From Azospirillum ramasamyi (lineage in GTDB: Bacteria > Pseudomonadota > Alphaproteobacteria > Azospirillales > Azospirillaceae): a stretch of DNA of 64,000 nucleotides. The notes beneath the pieces were generated by a model, which was not told the DNA's origin, searched no databases, and saw only the letters and a list, made by a program, of their open reading frames with translations. The stretch is from the NCBI RefSeq assembly GCF_003233655.1, contig NZ_CP029829.1, positions 1,870,978 to 1,934,977 on the forward strand, in the 5' to 3' direction. The position numbers were made by a program, and so were the translations under genes. Positions 46,175-60,074 of the stretch are shown in pieces (position 1 is the first letter of the stretch; each line of letters opens with the position of its first letter).

Positions 46175-46489
46175 GTGTCGCTGATCAAGTGGACGGAGGA
46201 GGATGGCGGGCGGATTCGCCTGGGCCTGCCCAGCGATCTGGATTTGCCCATGGCGCAGCCTCTGCTCGACAGCCTGCGCGCCGCCTTCAAGGCGTCGGCG
46301 GCCGTCGTCGTCCAGGCAGACGCGGTGGAGCGGATCAGCGCCGCCTGCATCCAGGCCCTGGTCGTCGCCGCCCGCGACGCGGCCGAGCGCGGGGCGGATT
46401 TCACCCTCGCCGCCCCGTCGGAGGTGCTGTCCGAAGCGTGCGAGGATCTGGGACTCGCCGCCTGGCTGAAGCAATGGAGCCGAGCGTGA
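46175..46489 (+). CDS. STAS-domain protein at the head of the che operon
   Basis: Protein of 104 residues, single STAS domain: RIRLGLPSDLDLPMAQPLLD, then VVVQADAVERISAACIQALV. It has the usual strand-helix order, with SAACIQALVVAAR in place of the DSAG loop. The serine of ISAAC aligns with the phosphorylation serine of SpoIIAA. Start GTG 46175 follows GGAGG. In rhizobial and Azospirillum che operons a STAS gene precedes cheY-cheA, as here. Its role there is unclear; coupling to the anti-sigma-type kinase at the 3' end is a hypothesis. Its stop overlaps the GTG of cheY. Confidence 0.85.
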   Translation: MSLIKWTEEDGGRIRLGLPSDLDLPMAQPLLDSLRAAFKASAAVVVQADAVERISAACIQALVVAARDAAERGADFTLAAPSEVLSEACEDLGLAAWLKQWSRA

Positions 46490-46851
46490 AGAAGAAAGTG
46501 ATGACGGTGGACGATTCGCGGACCATGCGCGACATGGTGTCCTTCACCCTGCGCGGCGCCGGCTATGACGTGGTGGAGGCCGCCGACGGCCAGCAGGCGA
46601 TGAGCGCCATCGCCACCAACAAGGTCGATCTGGTCATCACCGACCTGAACATGCCGGTCATGGACGGGCTGACGCTGATCCGCAAGCTGCGCGCCATCCC
46701 GGCCCACCGCACCCTGCCGATCCTGATGCTGACCACCGAAGCCGACGAGAGCAAGAAGGCGGAGGGCCGGGCCGCCGGAGCCACCGGCTGGATCGTGAAG
46801 CCCTTCAACCCGGACAAGCTGGTGTCGGTGGTGCAGAAGGTCTGCGGCTGA
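46486..46851 (+). CDS. cheY: Chemotaxis response regulator CheY
   Basis: Single receiver domain of 121 residues. Acid pocket D9/D10 (MTVDDSRTMRDM), phospho-acceptor D53 in DLVITDLNMPVMDG, the Thr switch in LPILMLTTEA, and the lysine in GWIVKPFNPDKL are all present. GTG 46486 overlaps the STAS stop (GTGA) and has GGAG seven bases upstream. An ATG 12 bases earlier (46474) would also fit. The phosphoryl donor should be the CheA 35 bases downstream. Confidence 0.93.
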   Translation: MKKKVMTVDDSRTMRDMVSFTLRGAGYDVVEAADGQQAMSAIATNKVDLVITDLNMPVMDGLTLIRKLRAIPAHRTLPILMLTTEADESKKAEGRAAGATGWIVKPFNPDKLVSVVQKVCG

Positions 46852-46885
46852 CCGCAAGCCGTCAGCTCAAGGGAGGGGTACAGCC

Positions 46886-49171
46886 GTGGACGATCTCAGC
46901 CGCTTCAAGCAGACCTACTTCGACGAAAGCGCCGAATTGCTGGCCGTCGCCGAGGCCGGGCTGCTGCGCCTCGCCCCCGGCGAGATCGACATGGACGAGG
47001 TGAACGCGATCTTCCGCGCCGTCCATTCGATCAAGGGCGGCGGCGGCGCCTTCGGCTTCAACGACCTCGTCGCCTTCGCGCACGAGTTCGAGACGGTGAT
47101 GGACGGCGTGCGCAACGCCGAGATCGCCGTCACCACCGGGCTGGTCGATACCCTGATCCGCGCCAACGACGTTCTTGCCCGCCTGCTGGCCCACGCCGCC
47201 GACGAAACCGACGCGCCGGCCGGCACCACCGATGATACCGTCGCGGCGCTGCGCCGTTTCCTGGGCAAGGCGGAGACGCCGGCGGAGGAGCCGCCGCCCG
47301 CCCCCGCCTCCCCTCTTTATCCCGACGACGAGGATGACGAGGCCGGCATCTTCGGCGACGCGCTGGCCGCCATCCAGGCCGCCCGCGACGACCAGCCCGC
47401 CCCTTCGGTTTCGGGCCCGGTGCCGGAGGGAAAGCTCCGCTGGACCATCGTCTTCCGCCCGAAGGCCGAGCTTCTGCTGTCCGGCAACGAGCCGACCTAC
47501 ATGCTGCGCGCCCTGCGCCGTCTGGGCGACGCGGAGGTGGTCTGCCACCTGGACAAGCTGCCCTCCCTGCGCGACCTCGACGCCGAACTGCTGCACCTGT
47601 CCTGGACGGTGACGCTGCTGGCCGATCCGCAGGTGGACCGCGCCCAGATCGACGACGTGTTCGAGTTCGTCGCCGACGACTGCGACATCCGCATCAGCGC
47701 CGAGGCGCCGCCTCCCGCCGTCATTCCCGCAGTCATTCCCGCCGCCGAACCGGCGCCCCCCGCCAACCTGCCGGAACCGTCGGCGCCCGCTTCCCCGCCG
47801 GTCGCCACAGCGCCGGCCGCCACCTCCGGCTCCCCCGGCGCGGCGAAGGCCGCCGATGGCGCGAAGCGCGGGAACGGCGGCGGCGGCGACCATTCCGGGC
47901 CGACCACCCACACCATCCGCGTCGACCTCGACAAGATCGACCGGCTGGTGAACATGGTCGGCGAGATGGTCATCACCCAGGCGATGATCGCGGAGCATCT
48001 GCGCGACCTGCCGCCCGGCCAGTTCCAGGAATTGCTGGAAGGGCTGGAAAGCCTCGCCCAGCACACCCGCGAGCTGCGCGAGAGCGTGATGTCGATCCGC
48101 GCCCAGCCGGTCTCCAGCGTCTTCTCCCGCATGCCCCGGCTGGTGCGCGAATGCGCCGCCTCCACCGGCAAGGAGGTGATGCTGGTCACGTCGGGCGAGA
48201 CGACGGAGGTCGACAAGACGGTGGTGGAGAACCTCGTCGATCCGCTGACCCACATGATCCGCAACTCCATCGACCACGGGCTGGAAGGCCCGGAGGAACG
48301 GGAGCGCATCGGCAAGCCGCGCGCCGGCACCGTGCATCTGTCCGCCGCCCACCGGTCCGGCCGCATCGTGATCGAGGTGACCGACGACGGCCGCGGCATC
48401 AACCGGGCAAAGGTGCTGTCCAAGGCGATCGAGAAGGGGCTGGTCCAGCCCGGAGCCACCCTGTCCGACGAGGAGATCGACCACCTGATCTTCCTGCCCG
48501 GCTTCTCCACCGCGGACCAGGTGTCGAACCTGTCCGGCCGCGGCGTCGGCATGGACGTGGTGCGGCGGAACATCTGCAGCCTGGGCGGGCGCATCGGCAT
48601 CTATTCGACGCCGGGCGAGGGCTCGCGCTTCGTTCTGTCGCTGCCGCTGACGCTGGCGGTGCTCGACGGCATGGTGATCTCGGTGGGGGAGGAGCGCTTC
48701 GTCCTGCCGCTGACCAACATCGTGGAAAGCCTGCGGCCCAAGCCGACGGACCTGCACGGGCTGGTGAACAAGTGCGACGTCATGATGGCGCGCGGCGAAT
48801 ATGTGCGGCTCGTCCACCTGCACCGGCTGTTCGGCATCCCCAAGGCCATCGACGACGCCACCCAGGGGTTGGTCGTGCTGGTTGAGACGGAGGACGGCTC
48901 CCGCCTCGGCCTCGTCGTGGACGAGGTGCTGGGCCAGCAGCAGGTCGTCATCAAGAGCCTGGAGGCCAACTTCCGCCGGCTGGACGGCGTCGCCGCCGCG
49001 ACCATCCTGGGCGACGGCCGGGTCGCCCTGATCCTGGACGTCGCCGGCCTGCGCGAAATGAGCCGCCACGGTGCCGGCAACGGAAACGGCGCCGATGGCG
49101 CAACCCAGACTTCCCCGACCCTGCCCGCCCCGGCGGACAGGATCGACCAGCGTCAACGCCAAACGGTTTGA
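46886..49171 (+). CDS. cheA: Chemotaxis histidine kinase CheA
   Basis: Kinase of 761 residues. The Hpt domain has FRAVHSIKGGGGAFGF with H47 as phosphorylation site. A P2-like ferredoxin fold lies at about 185-275 (LRWTIVFRPKAELLLSGNE), then a Pro/Ala linker. The dimerisation domain is at THTIRVDLDKIDRLVNMVGE; the ATPase has DPLTHMIRNSIDHGLEG (N-box), VIEVTDDGRGINRAKV and GRGVGMDVVRRNI. The CheW-like P5 domain ends the protein (LDGMVISVGEERFVLPL). GTG 46886 has AGGGAGGGG upstream. All kinase motifs look intact, so it should be active. Confidence 0.96.
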   Translation: MDDLSRFKQTYFDESAELLAVAEAGLLRLAPGEIDMDEVNAIFRAVHSIKGGGGAFGFNDLVAFAHEFETVMDGVRNAEIAVTTGLVDTLIRANDVLARLLAHAADETDAPAGTTDDTVAALRRFLGKAETPAEEPPPAPASPLYPDDEDDEAGIFGDALAAIQAARDDQPAPSVSGPVPEGKLRWTIVFRPKAELLLSGNEPTYMLRALRRLGDAEVVCHLDKLPSLRDLDAELLHLSWTVTLLADPQVDRAQIDDVFEFVADDCDIRISAEAPPPAVIPAVIPAAEPAPPANLPEPSAPASPPVATAPAATSGSPGAAKAADGAKRGNGGGGDHSGPTTHTIRVDLDKIDRLVNMVGEMVITQAMIAEHLRDLPPGQFQELLEGLESLAQHTRELRESVMSIRAQPVSSVFSRMPRLVRECAASTGKEVMLVTSGETTEVDKTVVENLVDPLTHMIRNSIDHGLEGPEERERIGKPRAGTVHLSAAHRSGRIVIEVTDDGRGINRAKVLSKAIEKGLVQPGATLSDEEIDHLIFLPGFSTADQVSNLSGRGVGMDVVRRNICSLGGRIGIYSTPGEGSRFVLSLPLTLAVLDGMVISVGEERFVLPLTNIVESLRPKPTDLHGLVNKCDVMMARGEYVRLVHLHRLFGIPKAIDDATQGLVVLVETEDGSRLGLVVDEVLGQQQVVIKSLEANFRRLDGVAAATILGDGRVALILDVAGLREMSRHGAGNGNGADGATQTSPTLPAPADRIDQRQRQTV

Positions 49172-49180
49172 GGCCCAGCG

Positions 49181-49729
49181 ATGAGCAGTTCCACCGCAAT
49201 CGCCACCGTCAATTCGCGCACCGACCTCCAGACCGCCGGCGGCGCCGCCAACGGGACGGAGGAGCAGTACGTCACCTTCACGGTCGGCAGCGAGGAATAT
49301 GGCGTCAACATCCTGGCCGTGCGCGAGATCCGCGGCTGGACGCCGGAAAGCCGCCTGCCCAACCTGCCCGACTATGTCCGCGGCGTGATCAACCTGCGCG
49401 GCATCATCATCCCGATCTTCGATCTGCGCGCCCGCTTCGGCGGCGGCCCCACCCAGGTGACGAAGCGCCATGTCGTGGTGGTGATGCAGGTGGGCGAGCG
49501 CACGCGCGGCATCCTGGTCGACGCCATCTCCGACATCCTGGCGATCGACCACGACGCGATCAAGCCGCCGCCCGACGTCGACAGCGGCCTGATCGACGCC
49601 GAATATCTCAGCGGCCTCTACACCGCCGACGACCGTATGGTGACCCTGCTGAACGTCGAGAAGCTGTTCGCCGGCGAGCATGTCGACCAGGACGCCGCTC
49701 CCCGCGCCCCGGCGCTCGAGATCACCTGA
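49181..49729 (+). CDS. cheW: Chemotaxis coupling protein CheW
   Basis: Coupling protein of 182 residues that joins receptors to CheA. The SH3-like double barrel is visible: EEQYVTFTVGSEEYGVNILA, VREIRGWTPESRLPNLPDYV, RGVINLRGIIIPIFDLRARF and GILVDAISDILAIDHDAIKP. It has a 25-residue polar N-terminal extension. ATG 49181 is nine bases after the cheA stop. Confidence 0.95.
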   Translation: MSSSTAIATVNSRTDLQTAGGAANGTEEQYVTFTVGSEEYGVNILAVREIRGWTPESRLPNLPDYVRGVINLRGIIIPIFDLRARFGGGPTQVTKRHVVVVMQVGERTRGILVDAISDILAIDHDAIKPPPDVDSGLIDAEYLSGLYTADDRMVTLLNVEKLFAGEHVDQDAAPRAPALEIT

Positions 49730-49796
49730 CCGGAAGGAGCGAGGCAACCTTCGGCGCCTCTGCAACGAGAAGCAAGAATAAGAGGGAAGGTCACCG

Positions 49797-52406
49797 ATGG
49801 CCACCGACGGCAAGATCGCCAAAGCCGGCAGCTTCCTCAGCAACATGCGCATCGCCAAGCGGCTGTGGCTGGTCTTCGGCCTGTTGCTGGTCCTGATCGC
49901 CGCCCAGTCCGGCGTGGGCATCCTGGGGCTGGACGGGCTGAACCGCCGCATCGGCGGGGTCTTCGCCTCCGGCGACCTCGCCGTCTTCGCCAAGGATCTG
50001 GAAAGCCGTCTGGCCGCCGAGCGGCTGCAGACCCGCGAATACATCAATCTGGGCACGCCCGAGGCGCTGGACCGGCTGCGCGTGCTGCGCGGCGAGTTCG
50101 AGACGGCGATGTCGCAGCGGCAGGCGATGCTGGCGGCCTCGCCCCAGGCCGCGTCCTTCGCCGAGCTGAACAGCCTGCACACCACTTATCATGAGCGGTT
50201 CGACGCGGTGCGCGCCACGCGGGAACAGGCCGACCGCATCCTGCAGGAGCGGATGGACCCTCTGGGCGCCCAGGTGACGGCGCGGCTGGAGGAGGTGGTG
50301 GCGACGACCGCCGCCTCCGGCAGCCAGGACATCGCCTTCGCCGTCCAGGAGGTGGAAAAGCACTGGCTGCTGATCCGCTTCAACGCCAACCGCGCCATCG
50401 GGCTGCGCGACGCCGCCGCGGTCGCGCAGGTCGAGGCGGAAGGCAAGGCGATGGCCGACGCCGTCGCCCGGCTGTCCGCCATCCTTCGTGCCGGGGGCCG
50501 CGCCGACAACAGCCTGTCGGCGGTCCTGAGCCAGGTCGATGCCCGCGCCGCCGACTACCGCGCCGCCTTCCGCGACGTGATCGCCGCCAACGACGAGGCC
50601 CGGCGACGCGCCGACCATCTCGCCGCCGCCGCCACGTCGGTCAACAGCGCCATCGACGGCATCGTCGGCAGGATCGCCGCCAATGCCAGGGCGACCGAGC
50701 AGGAAGCCGAGAGCGTCGCCGGCTTCACCATCCGCCTGACGCTGGGGCTGGGGCTGCTGTCCCTGGTGATCGGCGTCGTCGCCGCCAACCGCATCGCCGC
50801 CTCCATCACCGCGCCCGTCACCGGCATCCGCCGGGTGATGGCCGACCTGACCGCCGGCAAGCTGTCGGTCAACGTTCCCCACACCGGCCAGCAGGACGAG
50901 CTGGGCGACATGGCCCGCGCCGTCGCCGCCTTCAAGGACGAGGCGGTGGAGGCCCTGCGCTCCCGCATCGCGCTGGAACAGGTGTCGGCAAACATCATGA
51001 TGGCGGACACCGACGGCCGCATCCTCTACGCCAACGACTCGATCATGGCCATGTTCCGCAATGCCGAGTCCGACCTGCGCGCTTCGCTGCCGGGCTTCGA
51101 CGCGAGCAGGCTGGTCGGCCAGAATTTCGACGTCTTCCACCGCGACCCCTCGCACCAGCGCCGCCTGCTGGCCGACCTGAAGCAGACCCACCGCGGCTGG
51201 GCCAAGACCGGCGGCCGGACCTTCCAGATCATCGCCAACCCGGTGGTCAGCCGTCAGGGCGAGAGGCTGGGCACCGTCATCGAATGGCGCGACCTGACGG
51301 AGGAGCTGGCGATCGAGGCGGAGATCGGCGCGATCGTGGAGAACGCCGTGCGCGGCGACTTCAGCCGCCGCATCGCGCTGGACGGCAAGACCGGCTTCTT
51401 CCGGCTGGTCAGCGAGGGCATCAACCGGCTGTCGGAAAACGTCGCGGCGGTGACGGAGGATCTGGCGTCGGTGATGGAGGCGCTGTCGCAGGGCGACCTT
51501 ACCCACCGGATGGACAAGCAGTATGAGGGCGTGTTCCAGCGGCTGAAGGACGACTTCAACGGCTCGGTGTCCCAATTGTCGGAGATCGTCCGGCGCATCG
51601 ACGAAGCCGCCGGCTCCATCGCCGTTGCCAGCCGCGAGGTGGCGGAAGGCAGCATGGATCTGTCCGAACGGACCGAGCAGCAGGCCTCCTCGCTGGAGGA
51701 AACCGCGGCCAGCATGGAGCAGCTCGCCTCGACCGTGCGCTCCAACGCCGAAAACGCCCAGCAGGTCAACGGCTATGCCACCGAGGCGCGCACCGCGGCC
51801 TCCCGCGGCGGCGAGGTGGCGGCCAGCGCGGTGGAGGCGATGCGCCGGATCGAGCAGTCGTCCCAGAAGATCGCCGACATCATCGGCGTCATCGACGAGA
51901 TCGCCTTCCAGACCAACCTGCTGGCGCTGAACGCGGCGGTGGAGGCGGCCCGTGCCGGCGATGCCGGGCGCGGCTTCGCCGTGGTGGCGCAGGAGGTGCG
52001 GCAGCTCGCCCAGCGTTCCGCCCAGGCCTCGAAGGAGATCAAGTCGCTGATCCTCGACAGCGGCGGGCAGGTGCGCGAGGGCGTCGGGCTGGTCCGGTCC
52101 GCCGGCAGCGCCCTGACGGAGATCGTATCGGGCATCAGCCGCGTCGCCGATCTGGTGTCGGAGATCGCGCGGGCGACCACCGAGCAGGCTTCCGGCCTGG
52201 ACGAGGTCAACATCGCCATCACCCAGATGGACGAGATGACGCAGAAGAACGCCGCGCTGGTGGAGGAAAGCACCGCCGCCGCCCGCTCGCTGGAGGATCA
52301 GGCCGACCAACTGCGCCGGCAGATGACCTTCTTCACCCTGGACCGCCAGTCTCGGAACGCCGCTACCGCCACCGGGAAAGTCCGGCGGCAACCCGAACCC
52401 GCCTGA
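49797..52406 (+). CDS. Methyl-accepting chemotaxis protein with PAS domain
   Basis: Receptor of 869 residues encoded inside the che operon. Membrane helix 1 ([20 protein letters not shown], about 22-42), a 260-residue periplasmic helical sensor, membrane helix 2 ([20 protein letters not shown], about 310-330), HAMP with [24 protein letters not shown] domain follows (about 385-500, [39 protein letters not shown]), then a second HAMP-like stretch and the signalling hairpin [20 protein letters not shown]. The tail ends VRRQPEPA with no tethering pentapeptide. A cytoplasmic PAS between HAMP and hairpin suggests redox or energy input besides the periplasmic signal. Confidence 0.93.
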
Positions 52407-52425
52407 CGATGCCGCCGGTGCCGCG

Positions 52426-53337
52426 ATGACCGACCGTTCCCCCACCCTGTCGATCGAATCTCCGGCCGCGCGCCGGGTGCCGGCCGCGGTGTTCGGCGGC
52501 GCGCGCGAGTTCCATTTCGAACGGCATCACTTCGACCTGATCGCCGGACTGCTCTACCAGCTGGCCGGCATCGCACTGGCCCCGCACAAGGCGGAGATGG
52601 TCTATGCCCGGCTGGCGCGCCGCCTGCGCGAACTGCGGCTGCCCGATTTCGATACCTATTGCACCCTGCTGCAAGGCGACGGCGGGGCAGGCGAAATCGG
52701 CTTCCTCGTCAATGCGCTGACCACCAACCTGACCAGCTTCTACCGCGAATCGCATCACTTCGACTTCCTCGCCTCCACCGTCCTGCCGGAGGCGCGGACG
52801 CGCAATGCCGACGCCGCCCGCCCGCGGCTGCGGCTGTGGTCGGCCGGCTGCTCGTCGGGGCCGGAGCCCTACACCATGGCGATGGTGCTGGTCTCGACCA
52901 TGGGCGCGGACCTGCGCCGCTGGGACGCCCGCATCCTCGCCACCGACATCGACACCCACATGGTCGAAACGGCGAGACGGGGCATCTATCCGCTGTCGGG
53001 CGCCACCGGCATTCCGCCCGCCATCCGCCAGCGCTTCACCCACGACACCCGGCTGAACGGTGAGCCGGCGGTGGAGATGGGCGAGGATCTCAAACGGCTC
53101 GTGACCGTCAAACCTCTGAACCTGCTCGAACATTGGCCGATGTCCGGCCCGTTCGATGCGATATTTTGCCGCAACGTCCTGATCTATTTCGACCGCCGCG
53201 GCCGCACGCAGGTGATAGAAAACTTCGGCCGGATGCTCCGTCCCGGCGGGTATCTGTTCCTCGGCCACTCGGAGAGCCTGTATGGCGTGTCGAACCTGTT
53301 CCGGCAGGCCGGCCCAACGATCTACCGGCGGGAGTGA
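52426..53337 (+). CDS. cheR: Chemotaxis protein methyltransferase CheR
   Basis: SAM-dependent methylase of 303 residues that adds methyl groups to receptor glutamates. NALTTNLTSFYRESHHFDFL is the conserved start of the catalytic domain, LRLWSAGCSSGPEPYTMAMV the SAM loop, ILATDIDTHMVETARRGIYP the acidic strand, and FDAIFCRNVLIYFDRRGRTQ the closing motif. ATG 52426 is 19 bases after the receptor stop. A non-standard 40-residue N-terminal segment is present. Confidence 0.95.
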   Translation: MTDRSPTLSIESPAARRVPAAVFGGAREFHFERHHFDLIAGLLYQLAGIALAPHKAEMVYARLARRLRELRLPDFDTYCTLLQGDGGAGEIGFLVNALTTNLTSFYRESHHFDFLASTVLPEARTRNADAARPRLRLWSAGCSSGPEPYTMAMVLVSTMGADLRRWDARILATDIDTHMVETARRGIYPLSGATGIPPAIRQRFTHDTRLNGEPAVEMGEDLKRLVTVKPLNLLEHWPMSGPFDAIFCRNVLIYFDRRGRTQVIENFGRMLRPGGYLFLGHSESLYGVSNLFRQAGPTIYRRE

Positions 53338-53340
53338 GCG

Positions 53341-54003
53341 ATGAGCGCCTCCACCCTCCCCCATCGGGCGTCCGGCCCGGCGGCACCGGCGCGGCGGCTG
53401 GGCAGCGGCCGCTATTTCAATCATGAATTCAAGACGGAGACGATCAAGATCGCGCTGGGCCAGCAGGCGGTGAGCGACCGGGGCGACCTGATGATCGCCA
53501 CCACGCTCGGCTCCTGCGTGGCGGCCTGCATCCACGATCCGGTGCGAGGGATCGGCGGCATGAACCATTTCATGCTGCCCGACCTGCCGGCCAGCGAGCT
53601 GGAGGGGGCCGGGGCCGCCGCGCGCTACGGCTCCGTCGCGATGGAACTGCTGATCAACGCCCTGCTCGCCGCCGGGGCCGACCGCAGGCGGCTGCAGGTC
53701 AAGCTGTTCGGCGGCGCCAGCGTCATCGACTCGAGCTACGACATCGGCGGGCTGAACAGCCGCTTCGCCCTGGACTATGTGCGGGCGGAAGGGCTGACGC
53801 TGGCCGGACATGACCTGGGCGGCGGCTCCGCGCGGCGCCTGCATTACTTCCCGCACAGCGGCCGCGCCCTGCGCCGCCTGCTGCGGCCGGAGGCGGCGGC
53901 CGACACCGTCACCCGCGAACGGTCCTTCATCACCCATCTCGCCCGCACCCCGGTGGAGGGCGAGGTGGAGCTGTTCGGACCCGCCGATGCGGGAGGGAAC
54001 TGA
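53341..54003 (+). CDS. cheD: Chemoreceptor glutamine deamidase CheD
   Basis: Deamidase of 220 residues. The catalytic cysteine and histidine are in [20 protein letters not shown] and MNHFMLPD, followed by [20 protein letters not shown] and [10 protein letters not shown]. It converts specific receptor glutamines to glutamates. The extra C-terminal 40 residues are not catalytic. ATG 53341 is three bases after the cheR stop. Confidence 0.95.
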
Positions 54004-54006
54004 CCC

Positions 54007-55068
54007 ATGCCCAGACCGATCCGCGTCGTCATCGTCGACGACAGCGCCCTGATGCGCGAGATGCTGAAGGACATCCTGACCCGCGAGCCGGGGATGGAGG
54101 TCGCCGGCCTCGCCCGCGACGCCTTCGAGGCCCGCGACGTCATCAAGGCCACCAACCCCGACGTCATCACGCTGGACGTCGAGATGCCGAAGATGGACGG
54201 CCTGTCCTTCCTGGAAAAGATCATGACCCTGCGGCCGACGCCGGTGATCATGGTCTCCTCCCTCACGCGCGAGGGCTCCGACGCCGCCATCCGCGCGCTG
54301 GAACTGGGGGCGGTCGACTGCGTCGCCAAGCCCGGCGGCTCCGAAGGCCACGGATTCGAGGCGACGGCGATGGAGCTTGTCTCGAAGATCCGCATCGCCG
54401 CCACCGCCCGGCTGGCCATGCGCCGGCCGGCTGCCGTCCATGGCGTCCTGCCGACGCCGCGCCGCGCCGGATCGGGCAAGCGGCTGATCGCCGTCGGCGC
54501 CTCGACCGGCGGGGTGGAGCGCATCCGCGACCTTCTGGCCGCCATGCCGGCCGACTGCCCGCCCATCGTCATCACCCAGCATATGGGCCCCAGCTACGTG
54601 CCCAGCTTCGCCGTCCGGCTCGACCGGCTGTCGGCGCCCACGGTGCGGGTGGCCGTCCATGGCGACCGGCCGGCCCAGGGGCTGGTGCTGATCGCCCCCG
54701 GCGACCGCCATCTCGCCGTCGCCCGCGACACCGCAGGCTTCGTCTGCCACATCCAGGACACGCCGCCGGTCAGCGGCCATCGTCCTTCGGTGGACGTTCT
54801 GTTCGCCTCCGTCGCCAAGGCGGCCGGCGCCAATGCGGTCGGCGTGATCCTGTCCGGCATGGGCCGCGACGGCGCCATCGGCATGAAGGCCATGCACGAG
54901 GCCGGCGCCTTCACCATCGGCGAACAGGAATCGAGCTGCGTCGTCTACGGAATGCCGCGCGCCGCCAAGGAGGCCGGTGCGGTCGCGGTCGAACTTCCGC
55001 TCACCCATATTCCCGCCGAAATGCTGCGTGCCTTCGACGCTGTCGGCGAGCGCCCCCGCACCGCCTGA
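54007..55068 (+). CDS. cheB: Chemotaxis methylesterase CheB
   Basis: Response regulator with receptor methylesterase, 353 residues. The receiver has the phospho-acceptor D57 in [20 protein letters not shown]. The catalytic domain (about 158-345) has S166 in [14 protein letters not shown]192 in [13 protein letters not shown], and D288 in [17 protein letters not shown] 54007 is three bases after the cheD stop. With CheR it completes receptor adaptation. Confidence 0.95.
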
Positions 55069-55109
55069 CCACGGCGGACAGCAGGGTCGAGTTTCCAAGG
55101 AGCACCAGC

Positions 55110-56273
55110 ATGTCTATCCCCGCCTCCGTCAGAGATGCCGTCACGTTCGCCGCTGGAGACGCCGCCGCCGGAGACGCCTCCCCCCCGGCCGGCCGGCCGG
55201 CGGAGGGCGAGGCCAAGGTCGCGGTCACGGCAGAGCTTCTGTCGACCTGGCTCGGCTTCGCCGACGTGCAGCGCCGCACGCTGGACATCGTCCAGAGCGA
55301 GCTGACGCGCACGTCTGACCATGTGGAGGCCTCCACCCTCGACCTGTCCGAACGCTTCCGCGAACTGGCCCAGAAGGCTCTGGAGCAGTCGGAGCGGGTG
55401 GAGCAGATCGTCGCCATGGCCGGATCGGTGGACATCGACGGCGAACGGGTGCCGCTCGACACGCTGGTCATCGGCATGCAGGACATGATCACCGACATGG
55501 TGACCAACATCGTCACCCTGTCGCGCCATGCCATGAGCATGGTCTATCTGCTGGACGACGTTCAGAAGGACGTGGCCGAGCTGGAGAAATCGATCGGCGA
55601 CATCGACGGCATCAACCGCCAGACCAACTTCCTGGCGCTGAACGCCACCATCGAGGCCAGCCGCGCCGGCGAGGCCGGGCGCACCTTCGCCGTGGTGGCG
55701 CAGGAGGTGCGGCACCTCTCCCGCACCACCGGCGAACTGGCGGACCGCATGCGCAACAAGGTCGGCGCGGTGGTCAAGGGCGTGCGCGACGGCCACGACA
55801 TCCTGCGCCAGATCGCCAACACCGACATGTCGCCGCAGATGCTGGCGAAGGAGCGCGTCGACAAGACGATGGACAGCCTGGTGTCGCAGACCACCCATTT
55901 CCAGGCGGTGCTGGAAACGGCGGCGTCGGTGTCGACCGACATGTCCGCCACAATCGCCCATGTCATCACCGGCATGCAGTTCCAGGATCTGACCAAGCAG
56001 CGGATCGAGGCGATCAACGACAGCCTCGCCATCATGAGCGCCGGGCTGGGCGAGCTTGAGACCCGCATCCGTGTCCAGGTGCCGCCCGGCATCGGCGCGT
56101 GGGAGCCGGAGGAATGGCTGAACCAGTTGATGGGCCGCTTCACCCTGAGCGAGATGCGCGAGCGTTTCGTACGCAAGCTGCTGCTGGAGGGCACCGCGCT
56201 GGACGAGAACGGCGCGCTCGACCTCGATGTCGGGGGGGGCAGCGATTCCGGTGGCGACATTGAACTTTTCTAG
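55110..56273 (+). CDS. Soluble MCP-hairpin protein with CheZ-like DxxxQ motif
   Basis: Protein of 387 residues with no membrane segment. Residues 168-205 resemble the receptor signalling tip ([20 protein letters not shown], then [18 protein letters not shown]). Helices continue on each side. Residues 287-300 read [14 protein letters not shown], nearly the CheZ active-site helix (FQDLTGQ), with D293 and Q297 as the DxxxQ pair that removes phosphate from CheY. The C-terminus ends in an acidic DIELF. The sequence supports a receptor-like tip plus a CheZ-like motif in one chain. A role as a CheY phosphatase recruited to the array is inference. An alternative is that the resemblance arises from shared long-helix composition. 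Confidence 0.75.
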
Positions 56274-56326
56274 CGCGGGACAACCGGCGCTCCTACAGTG
56301 CATCACCTTTCCTGAAAGACGACATC

Positions 56327-56632
56327 ATGGACTACGGTATCGAACTGCGCGACCAGGAGGCGGTGGTCCGCCTTCGCGGCCGTCTGACCTTCAACGACCA
56401 CGCGAAGCTGCGCACCCTGATCGGCGAGATGGAACAGAACAAGGCCCGGCGCCAGGTGCTTGACCTGTCTTCGCTGGAATTCGTCGACTCCGCCGGCATC
56501 GGCATGCTGCTGATCGCGCGGGAGGAAATGGACCGCGCCGACAAGCAGTTCGTCCTGCGCGCCGCCGCCGGGCAGGTGAAGCGGGTGCTGACCGTGGCGC
56601 AGATCGCCAAGATCGTCCAGATCGAGGACTGA
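56327..56632 (+). CDS. STAS-domain anti-sigma factor antagonist
   Basis: Protein of 101 residues like SpoIIAA/RsbV. RLRGRLTFNDHAKLRTLIGE is the first half and VLDLSSLEFVDSAGIGMLLI holds the phosphorylatable serine of the DSAG loop. The kinase gene follows after five bases, so the usual antagonist-kinase pair is present. Phosphorylation by that kinase would release it from a target, and dephosphorylation by a PP2C would restore it. It is a second, different STAS protein of the operon; the one at 46175 lacks the DSAG form. Confidence 0.88.
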   Translation: MDYGIELRDQEAVVRLRGRLTFNDHAKLRTLIGEMEQNKARRQVLDLSSLEFVDSAGIGMLLIAREEMDRADKQFVLRAAAGQVKRVLTVAQIAKIVQIED

Positions 56633-56637
56633 CCTGC

Positions 56638-57495
56638 TTGACCGACGGGGACACCCTTCCCAGCGGCGCGGACACCGGGCTCCGCACGCGCTTCTCCGGG
56701 CTCGTCGCGCCGGGGCTGCCGCCCGACCGCCGCGACCGGCTGGCGCGGGCGCTGGGCCTGAATCCGGCGGACGAGCTGGCGGACGAACCGGCGGATGGGC
56801 CGGCCGGTTCCGAAGCGCTGGCGCTGCTCCTGACGGACGGCCGCGCGGCTGAGAAGGAATCGCTGTGGCTGCCCCCGGTCGCCGCCTGGGTCGAGCCGGC
56901 ATCCGGCGACGAGAATGGCGACGGCGCGGCCGCATGGCTGGCCGAGGCGTCCCGCACCGACCTGTACGTCAACCTGACCACCGCGACCGCACACGACCTG
57001 CAGCTGGGCGCTCGCCTGCTGGCCGCCATCGGCGCCCGCCACCCGCTTCCCGGGCACCGCCGCGACGATATCGAACTGGCCCTGCATGAGGCGGTCAGCA
57101 ACGCGCTGGTGCACGGCAATCTCGGCATCGGCGGCATGACGGAGCTGAGCGCGCGGGAGCTGGAACGCTTCTCCCGCGACCTGTGCGACGGGCTCGCCGA
57201 CCCGGTGCTCTCCGCCCGTCGGATCGTCATCGCCATACGCATCGATCCGCCGCAAAGCTCCCAGGCAGGGCTTGGAGCCGGGCCGGAACCAGCCGGGGGC
57301 CGGCCGGACGAGGCGCAGGAGCATGGCCGGGCGTTGGCGACGGTCGAGATCACCGACCAGGGCGCCGGCTTCGTACCGTGCAGGCTGGAGCGGGCCGGCG
57401 CCTCCGGCCGCGGCCTCGACCTGATCGGCAGCATCGCCGAAGGTCTGGAGATCGAGGATGGCGGCCGGCGCATCCGCCTGAGGTTCCGGCTGTGA
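56638..57495 (+). CDS. HATPase_c_2 serine kinase, anti-sigma factor (RsbW-type)
   Basis: Protein of 285 residues. A variable 100-residue N-terminal part is followed by a GHKL ATPase: ELALHEAVSNALVHGNLGIG (N-box), VEITDQGAGFVP (G1), GRGLDLIGSIAEGLEIED (G2). Length is twice that of RsbW, because of the N-terminal part and an insertion (about 205-235). TTG 56638, after GAGGA, is the likely start; no ATG exists near it. No sigma factor gene lies in this window, so the target may be elsewhere or may be CheA/CheY-linked. Confidence 0.8.
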   Translation: MTDGDTLPSGADTGLRTRFSGLVAPGLPPDRRDRLARALGLNPADELADEPADGPAGSEALALLLTDGRAAEKESLWLPPVAAWVEPASGDENGDGAAAWLAEASRTDLYVNLTTATAHDLQLGARLLAAIGARHPLPGHRRDDIELALHEAVSNALVHGNLGIGGMTELSARELERFSRDLCDGLADPVLSARRIVIAIRIDPPQSSQAGLGAGPEPAGGRPDEAQEHGRALATVEITDQGAGFVPCRLERAGASGRGLDLIGSIAEGLEIEDGGRRIRLRFRL

Positions 57496-57497
57496 CC

Positions 57498-58721
57498 ATG
57501 ACCGGGCAGGACATCTCCGGCCACGGCCGTCCGCAAAGCCTCGAAGGCCGCTATCCGAACCTTCAGGTCTCCGATACCCAGATCCTGGATTGCCCGATCC
57601 TGGTGGTGGACGACACCGCCTTCAACCGCACCTTGATCGGCGATTTCCTGGCCGTGGCGGGGTTCCGCAAGGTTTCCTTCGCCACCAACGGGATGGAGGC
57701 GCTGGCGATGATCGAGGCCGGCATTCCCGACCTGCTGATCCTCGACATCATGATGCCGGGAATCGACGGCTACGAGGTCTGCCGCCGCCTGCGCGCCGTG
57801 CCGGCAACGGCGGACCTGCCGATCCTGGTGCAGACCGCCCTGTCGTCGGTCGAGGACCGCAACCGGGCCTTCGCCGCCGGCACCACCGACCTCGTGACGA
57901 AGCCGCTCGAACAGACGGAGCTGCTGGCCCGCGTCCGCATCCATCTGGAAGACCGCGTGCTGATCCGCCGGCTGCAAAGCTACCGCGCGCGGGTGGAGGC
58001 GGAACTGTCCATCGCCCGCTCGATGCAGGAGCATCTGCTGCCGACGCCGGCGCAATGCACCGCCGCCGCCGCCGCGGCCGGCTGCACGCTGCGCGCCCAC
58101 AGCGTGATCTCGCCCACTCTCGGCGGCGATCTCTGGGGGCTGCTGCCTCTCCCCGGCCCGCGCTTCGGCGTCTATCTGCTGAACGTCGCCGGCCAGGGCG
58201 TGGCGGCGACGCTGAACGCCTTCCGCCTGCACACCCTTCTGCAGGAGCTGGGCCCCCTCCACGGCGAGGATCCCGCCGCCCTGCTGAGCGCCCTGAACGA
58301 CCGCGCCGCCGGACTGCTGGCAGCGGGGGAGACGGCGACCATGACCTATGGCGTGGTCGATGGCGGGCTCGGGCGCTTCACCCACGCCTCCGCCGAGGGG
58401 GCTCCGCCGATGATCCTGCGCGGCGACGGCGGATCGGATCGCGGCGGTGCGACCGGGCCGGCGATCGGCATCGCTCCCGGCGCCCGCTATCGCGCCGAGG
58501 TCATGGAGTTGCTGCCGGGTGCCGTGCTGGCGCTGTGCTCCGCCGCGATGCTGGAGGCGCCGGGCGCCGGCGGGAGCGGGCTGGGCGGGATGATCGCCCG
58601 CGCGGTGGCGGACGGCGATGGCTTCGAGGCCGTCCTGCGCTCGCTCGGCATTGGCATTGCGCTGGAACAGGCCGGAGGCGACGAGCACACGCTGCTGTGG
58701 ATCGGGCGGGGGGCAAGGTGA
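57498..58721 (+). CDS. Receiver-PP2C protein with degenerate phosphatase domain
   Basis: Protein of 407 residues: receiver (about 30-150, CPILVVDDTAFNRTLIGDF, DLLILDIMMPGIDGYEVCRR, DLVTKPL), short coil, then a SpoIIE/RsbU-type PP2C domain. GGDLWG is kept and so is a late DE pair, but the metal-binding motif of active members (VDFSGHG in the next gene) reads LNVAGQG, and YSD reads CSA. Two metal-ligand aspartates are thus lost, so it is probably a pseudophosphatase that binds but does not hydrolyse. Start ATG 57498; GTG 57492 overlaps the previous stop and is also possible. The receiver keeps its phosphorylatable aspartate. Confidence 0.82.
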   Translation: MTGQDISGHGRPQSLEGRYPNLQVSDTQILDCPILVVDDTAFNRTLIGDFLAVAGFRKVSFATNGMEALAMIEAGIPDLLILDIMMPGIDGYEVCRRLRAVPATADLPILVQTALSSVEDRNRAFAAGTTDLVTKPLEQTELLARVRIHLEDRVLIRRLQSYRARVEAELSIARSMQEHLLPTPAQCTAAAAAAGCTLRAHSVISPTLGGDLWGLLPLPGPRFGVYLLNVAGQGVAATLNAFRLHTLLQELGPLHGEDPAALLSALNDRAAGLLAAGETATMTYGVVDGGLGRFTHASAEGAPPMILRGDGGSDRGGATGPAIGIAPGARYRAEVMELLPGAVLALCSAAMLEAPGAGGSGLGGMIARAVADGDGFEAVLRSLGIGIALEQAGGDEHTLLWIGRGAR

Positions 58722-59950
58722 ATACCGGCATGGTGAATACCGGGAACATGGTGACAGCCGGCCCGCTTGCCGGGGGACGCGACTCCGCGGACGGATTGGC
58801 CGGCGCCCGCGTGCTGGTCGTCGACGACAACCGGATCAACCGCCATCTCCTGCTGGCCCTGCTGGAGCGCGGCGGCATCACCATGGTCGAACAGGCGGAG
58901 GATGGGCAGGAGGCGCTGGCCCTGATGGAGCGCTTCAAGCCGGATCTCGTCCTGCTCGACCTGATGATGCCGCAGTTGGACGGGTTCGAGATGTGCCGGC
59001 TGCTGCGCGCCGACCCGCAATGGAAATCGCTGCCGGTGCTGGTGCAGTCCAGCCTGAACCGGGTCGAGGATCGTGCCCGCGCCTTCCGCGCCGGGGCGAC
59101 CGATTACGTCACCAAGCCGCTCAACGCGGTGGAGCTGCTGGCCCGCGTCCGCATCCACCTGCGCAAACGCGCCATGCTGCGCGACCTGGAGCAGTATCAC
59201 AGCCGGACGGAGAGCGAGCTGGCGCTCGCCCGCGCCATGCAAATCCGGCTGCTGCCCGGTCCCGACCGGCTGGCGGAATTGCAGGAGGCGACCGGCATCG
59301 CCATCGACGCCCATTTCGCCCCCTCGTCCGAGTTGGGCGGCGATTTCTGGGGCATCGACCGGCTGCCTTGCGGCCGGGTCGCCGTCTATATGGTCGATTT
59401 CTCCGGCCATGGCGTGGGGGCGGCGCTGAACACCTTCCGGCTGGACGCCATCTGCCGCCAGATCGGCAGCACGGAGCTGACCCCTGCCGAATTCCTGGCC
59501 GCGATAAACCGCCGGCTGTGCGGCCTGCTTCCCTCCGGCCAGTTCGCCACGATGCTGACCGGCCTGATCGACCCGGTGGCGGGAGTGTTCGATTACGCCT
59601 CGGCCGGATCGACGACGCCGATGATGTGGCTGCCCGGCGACGAGGCGCCGCGGCTGGGCGACGGCAGCGGCCTGCCGCTCGGCCTGCTGGCGTCCGCCAC
59701 CTACGACAGCCGGCAGCTGCCGATGCCGCCGGGGGCACGGCTGTTCCTCTACTCCGACGCGGCGATCGAGATTCCGCTCGGAACGGACGGTCATGAGGTG
59801 CTGGACGAACCGGGTCTCGCCGCCCTGCTTGCCCGCCGCCTGCACGAACCCGACGGCGCCCGCCTGCTCGACGGCCTGCTGAGCGATCTGTACGCCACCG
59901 GTCCCGTCGACGACGACCTGACGGCGCTTCTGGTGTCCCGGCGGAGGTGA
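58718..59950 (+). CDS. Receiver-PP2C phosphatase (RsbU-like), intact
   Basis: Protein of 410 residues, paralogue of the preceding one. Receiver: VLVVDDNRINRHLLLALLER, DLVLLDLMMPQLDGFEMCRL with the phospho-acceptor, DYVTKPL. PP2C: ELGGDFWGIDRLP, VDFSGHGVGAALNTFRLD, LFLYSDAAIEIPLG and VDDDLTALLV, the full set of metal ligands. GTG 58718 overlaps the previous stop (GTGA). It should dephosphorylate the STAS antagonist when the receiver is phosphorylated, in the manner of HsbR/RsbU modules. It is the last gene of the operon, and the repeat element lies 12 bases downstream. Confidence 0.88.
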   Translation: MNTGMVNTGNMVTAGPLAGGRDSADGLAGARVLVVDDNRINRHLLLALLERGGITMVEQAEDGQEALALMERFKPDLVLLDLMMPQLDGFEMCRLLRADPQWKSLPVLVQSSLNRVEDRARAFRAGATDYVTKPLNAVELLARVRIHLRKRAMLRDLEQYHSRTESELALARAMQIRLLPGPDRLAELQEATGIAIDAHFAPSSELGGDFWGIDRLPCGRVAVYMVDFSGHGVGAALNTFRLDAICRQIGSTELTPAEFLAAINRRLCGLLPSGQFATMLTGLIDPVAGVFDYASAGSTTPMMWLPGDEAPRLGDGSGLPLGLLASATYDSRQLPMPPGARLFLYSDAAIEIPLGTDGHEVLDEPGLAALLARRLHEPDGARLLDGLLSDLYATGPVDDDLTALLVSRRR

Positions 59951-59961
59951 TCGCCGGGTCC

Positions 59962-60074
59962 AAAGCGGATTGCAATCCGCTTTGGACCGCGACGGCGGTC
60001 CCGGCCGCTCATGCGGCCGAAGCCCGACCGGCGAATGAGGTCATGTGAATCCAAAGCGAATGCAAATTCGCTTT
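59962..60074 (-). repeat. Dispersed palindromic element, copy 2 (opposite orientation)
   Basis: The 113 bases are the reverse complement of the element at 25270-25378 with few differences. They contain AAAGCGGATTGCAATCCGCT at the start (59962) and AAAGCGAATGCAAATTCGCT at the end (60053-60072), with the shared GCGACGGCGGTCCCGGCCGC core. It lies between the che operon and the rpsD terminator. Confidence 0.85.

Follow-up and report, generated by a model that had tools for sequence, protein, structure and literature searches.

A partner-switch-like gene set with a predicted receiver-pseudophosphatase, conserved behind an F7-type chemotaxis operon of Azospirillum

We have analyzed a stretch of 64,000 nucleotides (the window) from the 6.3 Mb genome of Azospirillum ramasamyi (contig NZ_CP029829.1, positions 1,870,978 to 1,934,977). 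An earlier note, made from these letters, had described an operon of thirteen plus-strand genes in which a chemotaxis pathway is joined to a partner-switching module. All thirteen are present in that order at 46175-59950, and each has a Pfam match. Nine chemotaxis genes are followed by four tail genes, encoding a STAS antagonist (STAS2), a kinase (kin) and two proteins with receiver and PP2C domains (PPa and PPb). Three of the tail proteins (antagonist, kinase and one receiver-phosphatase) resemble a partner switch in their sequences, and the long-conserved gene order supports its being part of the chemotaxis operon. The features are:

46175..46489, plus strand: CheS-type STAS protein of 104 amino acids, preceding cheY-cheA (Pfam STAS_2, 35.4 bits)
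46486..46851, plus strand: cheY (CheY4; Pfam Response_reg, 102.2 bits)
46886..49171, plus strand: cheA (CheA4) with Hpt, dimerisation, ATPase and CheW-like domains (Pfam)
49181..49729, plus strand: cheW (Pfam CheW, 135.2 bits)
49797..52406, plus strand: chemoreceptor, Tlp4a / Aer2-like (Pfam HAMP, PAS, HAMP, MCP tip)
52426..53337, plus strand: cheR (Pfam CheR, 196.4 bits)
53341..54003, plus strand: cheD (Pfam CheD, 82.1 bits)
54007..55068, plus strand: cheB (Pfam receiver and methylesterase)
55110..56273, plus strand: mcpZ, soluble MCP-like protein (Tlp4b / McpA-like) with a QFQDxxxQ motif (Pfam MCPsignal, 89.2 bits)
56327..56632, plus strand: STAS2, antagonist of RsbV / CrsA / RbaV type with Ser55 (Pfam STAS)
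56638..57495, plus strand: kin, HATPase_c_2 kinase of RsbW / RbaW type, N-terminal part variable (Pfam, 44.5 bits)
57498..58721, plus strand: PPa, receiver and degenerate PP2C, predicted pseudophosphatase (Pfam; alternative start GTG at 57492)
58748..59950, plus strand: PPb, receiver and intact PP2C, predicted phosphatase (Pfam; alternative start GTG at 58718)
59957..59988, no strand: perfect 16-bp palindrome 3' of PPb (sequence scan)

The first STAS gene and cheY overlap by 4 bases, as read from the letters. The gaps that follow are 34 (cheY/cheA), 9 (cheA/cheW), 67 (cheW/receptor), 19 (receptor/cheR), 3 (cheR/cheD), 3 (cheD/cheB), 41 (cheB/mcpZ), 53 (mcpZ/STAS2) and 5 bases (STAS2/kin). The kin/PPa and PPa/PPb junctions of 2 and 26 bases both become overlaps with the earlier starts. 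Simple scans, which are weak evidence, gave no promoter of the sigma-70 type, the one type scanned for, where 0.7 was expected, and six terminator-like sites where 4.8 were expected, none of them at the mcpZ/STAS2 junction. The operon encodes no histidine kinase other than CheA.

The first nine genes fit the published che4 operon of Azospirillum. In Azospirillum brasilense this has nine predicted proteins, of which CheA4, CheB4, CheR4, CheS, Tlp4a and Tlp4b were detected (PMC8561660); the three remaining proteins are presumably CheY, CheW and CheD. The four tail genes appear to lie outside this published operon. The Che4 system of A. brasilense has been assigned to class F7 (PMC6759762), the F7 system of Azospirillum is regarded as a horizontal acquisition (PMC3245306), and swimming reversals are controlled by CheA4 and CheY4 (PMC8100600). 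The gene order and the Tlp4a architecture of the window agree with F7, the class assigned in these papers. The receptor fits Tlp4a, in which the PAS domain sits between the first two HAMP domains (PMC6759762); in the window PAS likewise lies between HAMP domains. It scores 498.9 bits with the NCBIfam Aer2 model, below the model's cut-off of 1200, and has two predicted membrane spans, with hydropathy maxima beginning near residues 17 and 306. This receptor (49797-52406) therefore mixes Aer2-like PAS-HAMP parts with predicted membrane spans, types that are set apart in PMC7184735.

In alignments of the family Azospirillaceae the phospho-acceptor Asp53 of CheY is present in 52/52 rows and His47 of CheA in 50/51, the remaining row being a gap. 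The MCP-like protein encoded by mcpZ fits Tlp4b. Its QFQD...Q motif is invariant in 56/56 family rows and varies outside the family, and its AlphaFold model (pLDDT 70.4) matches MCP cytoplasmic domains. The protein bears a likeness to CheZ, and a CheZ reading is possible. The head STAS protein, which the earlier note had linked to the switch, is better assigned to the chemotaxis part. It keeps Arg53 and Ala57 in 52/52 family rows and Ser55 in 51/52; in the usual DSxG motif other residues take the place of Asp and Gly. We therefore reject it as a switch antagonist. By its domain and position it is a putative CheS, a protein that the published che4 operon includes. CheS is a STAS protein that binds CheA in Sinorhizobium meliloti (PMC12654446).

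The second STAS protein has the features of an antagonist. It scores 55.6 bits with TIGR00377, above the cut-off of 53.45, and among solved structures it is closest to anti-sigma factor antagonists. Residues D54, S55 and G57 are each present in 55/55 family rows, and the serine is retained in 28/28 rows from outside the family. A profile search with kin retrieves structures of the anti-sigma F factor and RsbW, and its residues E146, E151, N155, D240, G242, G244, G257 and G259 are present in 55/55 rows. PPb has a full-length sequence match to 3eq2, titled P. aeruginosa RssB. The four metal-binding Asp and the His of its PP2C domain (at positions that we take to be those of the SpoIIE-type motif) are kept in 54/54 family rows, as are D71 and K123 of the receiver. 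The four Asp are also kept in 13/13 che-linked receiver-PP2C copies examined from other alphaproteobacterial families.

PPa has an intact receiver, with D38, D39, D83 and K135 in 55/55 rows, and a degenerate PP2C domain. The first PP2C Asp is present in 51/55 rows, the second in 32/55, the third in 0/54 and the fourth in 51/54, the window copy itself lacking the fourth; the His is found in only 3/55. Since the third catalytic Asp is absent throughout and the receiver is intact, PPa is predicted not to be a phosphatase, and we reject the presence of two active phosphatases. The earlier claim of a complete partner switch is therefore sustained for the antagonist, the kinase and a receiver-phosphatase, and fails for the second receiver-PP2C phosphatase, which is degenerate in every relative read. 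On these residues the tail is predicted to encode one phosphatase and one conserved receiver-pseudophosphatase, an unexpected part of the system. A structural model of PPa (pLDDT 86.4) has P. aeruginosa RssB as its best match. RssB, with a receiver and a PP2C-like domain, acts on RpoS; we found no link tying PPa to RpoS. A conserved receiver-pseudophosphatase beside an active sister offers a clean case for the study of pseudophosphatases in bacterial switches.

With mcpZ as the query we searched 82 genomes of the family and fetched 60 loci, none of them from G047. The che-linked orthologue is present in 55 of these loci, and the other five have a second paralogue. The tail of antagonist, kinase, PPa and PPb is complete behind cheB-mcpZ in 53/55 loci, the other two ending at a contig edge. 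cheA is present in 53/55; its position in L082 was beyond the stretch fetched, and L052 has none. Several loci have a reduced receptor or none, and in L090 cheD follows PPb. The outer neighbors vary within the stretches fetched, with a NUDIX gene in 20/53 loci and an S4 gene in 19/53. As the tail is so constant while the outer neighbors vary, chance adjacency of the che and tail genes is rejected. The five loci of the second paralogue have no adjoining che or tail genes; one (L097) has a single MCP match, on the opposite strand.

Nor is the tail absent or elsewhere in close relatives, an outcome on which the earlier note would have reduced the coupling to adjacency. With the presence of Che4 scored by mcpZ and not by CheA, mcpZ is found at E <= 1e-40 in 57/82 genomes. 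An orthologue of PPb above 500 bits occurs in 57/57 genomes with mcpZ vs 1/25 without it, the exception being G057. When 12 of these 25 were searched for the window CheA, the best match had 46% identity.

Outside the family, mcpZ was found at E <= 1e-40 in 23/385 genomes of a class sample and at E <= 1e-30 in 30/398 of a phylum sample. Forty outer loci were annotated with profiles, Pfam being applied to part of them: 23 from other alphaproteobacterial families and 17 from other classes. The counts exclude G322 (class sample; sister of G224) and G472, G478, G509, G607, G615, G622 and G774 (phylum sample). Loci L185-L264, from a scan of named genomes with two short patterns that retrieved generic MCPs, are in no count. 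Searches of viral contigs and plasmids gave no lead. In the other alphaproteobacteria an antagonist and a receiver-PP2C protein are in the che locus in 14/23 loci (12 families), and a kinase-like match accompanies 13 of these 14, all but L169; in L171 and L176 this match is on the opposite strand. Among the nine remaining, L177 has the antagonist only, L178 has antagonist and kinase without che genes, and the rest have neither. In other classes 12/17 loci have an antagonist and a single receiver-PP2C-kinase protein; the three domains are fused in 6/6 non-alphaproteobacterial proteins scanned with Pfam and encoded by separate genes in the window. Two further fusions (L181:11813-13756 and L180:15117-17114) have the HATPase first, before receiver and PP2C, while the non-alphaproteobacterial proteins have it last. 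In L301, L303, L310 and L312-L314 the mcpZ, antagonist and receiver-PP2C-kinase genes lie inside a different che cluster, whose CheA has a receiver match.

Nineteen genomes from outside the family were searched for window-type receiver-PP2C proteins. Ten have a single copy, and that copy is che-linked. In a tree of these proteins a clade with no unlinked members unites eight che-linked copies from outside the family (support 96/97). PPb groups with the active G048 and G057 copies in one clade (98/91), and a branch with support 99/90 has PPa on one side. Another five of the outer che-linked copies are placed elsewhere, and the deeper forks are open. The tree fits an old linkage with some re-shuffling, and not a single proven origin.

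The gene order itself is not new and has been published for gamma- and betaproteobacteria (PMC7184735) and for Shewanella (PMC9855816). The stage 1 F7 cluster of the former runs antagonist, cheY, cheA, cheW, aer2-like, cheR, cheD, cheB, mcpA-like, second antagonist and serine phosphatase (PMC7184735), the order found in the window. As described there, however, stage 1 clusters have two cheW-like genes, one phosphatase gene and Aer2-like receptors without a periplasmic domain. The window has one cheW, with no second match in any family locus, and is therefore a variant and not a stage 1 member. It also has a separate kinase, receiver-pseudophosphatase and receiver-phosphatase, and a receptor with two predicted membrane spans. 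What the ancient F7 system does biologically is described as not yet known, and its role in stages 1 and 2 as unclear, with evidence for a stress response; its take-over of the motor is placed at the transition to stage 3, where the last three genes are lost (PMC7184735). The Che1 cluster of Shewanella oneidensis is similar in bringing together six che genes, two receptors, an antagonist and a receiver-PP2C-anti-sigma protein (PMC9855816, PMC6482189); it carries CrsR-CrsA, which 'could be involved' in RpoS control (PMC9855816). CrsR is described as a single protein that holds RpoS (PMC9855816, PMC6482189), whereas in the window the parts are split and one PP2C is degenerate. In HsbR-HsbA too the receiver, PP2C and HATPase are in one protein, where the window has separate genes. 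The HsbR receiver gates the control of HsbA in Pseudomonas aeruginosa (PMC6482189).

Split switches are known in alphaproteobacteria, as with Rba of Rhodobacter capsulatus (PMC3999984). Like the window, RbaV-RbaW-RbaY is alphaproteobacterial, with separate STAS, HATPase and REC-PP2C proteins and no linked sigma factor; it has one REC-PP2C, no pseudophosphatase copy is described, and the main text is without the word chemotaxis (PMC3999984). The features of an Rba-type split switch, including the STAS serine, are present in the window by Pfam and alignment. The window thus differs from the known layouts in that the switch is split, with a separate kinase, and the receiver-PP2C protein is doubled, the second copy being catalytically dead as judged from its residues. 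Among the top literature matches no open-access title or abstract opening dealt with the tail genes of Azospirillum, a weak negative since the subscription literature was mostly outside its scope.

The system is real and well conserved, and the idea that it is coupled to chemosensing is plausible and better founded than before. We consider it probable that this is an F7 chemosensory operon in an alphaproteobacterial form, to which a partner switch is joined as an output, and that it works in the following way. The receptor array would set the autophosphorylation of CheA, which would pass phosphate to CheY (for the motor) and CheB, and presumably also to PPb and PPa at their receivers. The antagonist would be phosphorylated at Ser55 by kin, and PPb, gated by its receiver, would remove that phosphate, this being the probable direction. 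Unphosphorylated antagonist would then bind kin, releasing the partner that kin or the antagonist keeps bound at other times; this would most likely be a transcription factor, for instance a sigma factor. PPa could accept phosphate without dephosphorylating, and would most likely bind the antagonist or drain phosphate from CheA, thereby setting a threshold. The catalytic residues of the tail proteins agree with these roles. Coupling of the switch to CheA is likely, the strongest argument being that the module goes with Che4 and that the operon has no other kinase. Through the switch the sensors probably act on more than swimming.

Loss of CheA4 in A. brasilense changes 271 proteins and the activity of the rpoN, nifA and nifH promoters, by a route to transcription described as unknown (PMC8561660). 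The four tail genes are a candidate for this link. It is possible, and we offer it tentatively, that Che4 has two outputs, with CheY4 steering the flagellum and the PPb and PPa receivers setting a transcription switch that includes nitrogen genes, the pseudophosphatase being a phosphorylation-gated decoy that makes a threshold out of graded CheA activity. This would be a living case of F7 taking over the motor while the ancestral switch output is kept. The tail genes are a concrete, deletable candidate for a link between the questions of F7 function and of CheA4 in transcription, in a tractable plant-associated bacterium.

Several observations weigh against a switch driven by CheA. The strongest is that a paralogous antagonist-kinase-receiver-PP2C module in the same genome (L267:7793-10521) adjoins two sensor kinases, one of them a hybrid of PAS-HisKA-REC-Hpt type. 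The paralogous module of G040 adjoins a hybrid of this type too, and the switch kinase of L170 and of L173 is followed by a hybrid kinase that has an Hpt match, a weak one in L170. A donor other than CheA is therefore possible. The four tail genes of G057 stand together with no che genes in the 20 kb read, and the genome of L052 (G035) lacks CheS-cheY-cheA-cheW within about 22 kb upstream, 16 kb of extra sequence included. In L041 (G031) the 156-base mcpZ-STAS2 gap has a terminator-like inverted repeat followed by a T-rich stretch, the sole case among 18/53 gaps viewed. The association is absent or incomplete in 9/23 alphaproteobacterial and 5/17 other mcpZ loci. On the output side, no sigma factor is linked to the operon by Pfam on its genes, as the earlier note had said, and FlgM, which gave no match in the window genome at E up to 1, is an unlikely switch target; this genome has 30 sigma-70 region 4 matches, with types not told apart. 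Finally, the effects are weaker in the cheA1 cheA4 double mutant, with 45 proteins changed and, under nitrogen fixation, nifA and rpoN promoter activities close to those of the wild type (PMC8561660), which a simple route from CheA4 to the switch does not predict.

These data bear on three other explanations. The phosphate might come from another kinase, such as an Hpt hybrid, the che neighborhood being inherited co-expression with no signaling. The kinases beside the paralogues and in L170 and L173, and the stand-alone module of G057, favor this, as does the feeding of P. aeruginosa HsbR by HptB (PMC6482189). Yet no such kinase is in the operon, the gaps between tail genes, at most 354 bases in the family loci surveyed as far as PPb, leave no room for one, and PPb tracks mcpZ. 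We regard it as somewhat unlikely. The switch might alternatively have the array or the motor as its target, in the way that CheS acts on CheA, and not gene expression. CheS binding to CheA (PMC12654446), the lack of a linked sigma factor and the binding of P. aeruginosa HsbA to a diguanylate cyclase as well (PMC6482189) are consistent with this; conservation of Ser55 and of the kinase/phosphatase pair, the control of RpoS by CrsR-CrsA (PMC9855816, PMC6482189) and the wide proteome effects of CheA4 loss (PMC8561660) argue against it. We regard it as unlikely. That PPa is a decaying, functionless duplicate is improbable. It has lost its catalytic Asp (54/54), and its PP2C half is evolving more quickly than the PPb counterpart, with dN/dS (the ratio of nonsynonymous to synonymous substitution rates) of 0.38-0.53 vs 0.15-0.30 in three pairs. 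These values are nevertheless below 1, the reading frame runs uninterrupted into the final part of the PP2C domain in 54/55 rows, the receiver residues are invariant, the predicted fold is confident, PPa is separated from PPb by a supported branch, and it is retained in the G057 module.

Two further arrangements of the paralogues were seen. In a subgroup of the genus the che operon is followed by a paralogous module on the opposite strand (L059:17043-19495). G048:C92 encodes an extra PPb-like protein (L266:5037-6281) in which the phospho-acceptor Asp of the receiver is Glu; it sits between large receiver-bearing proteins, one of which is a hybrid kinase by Pfam.

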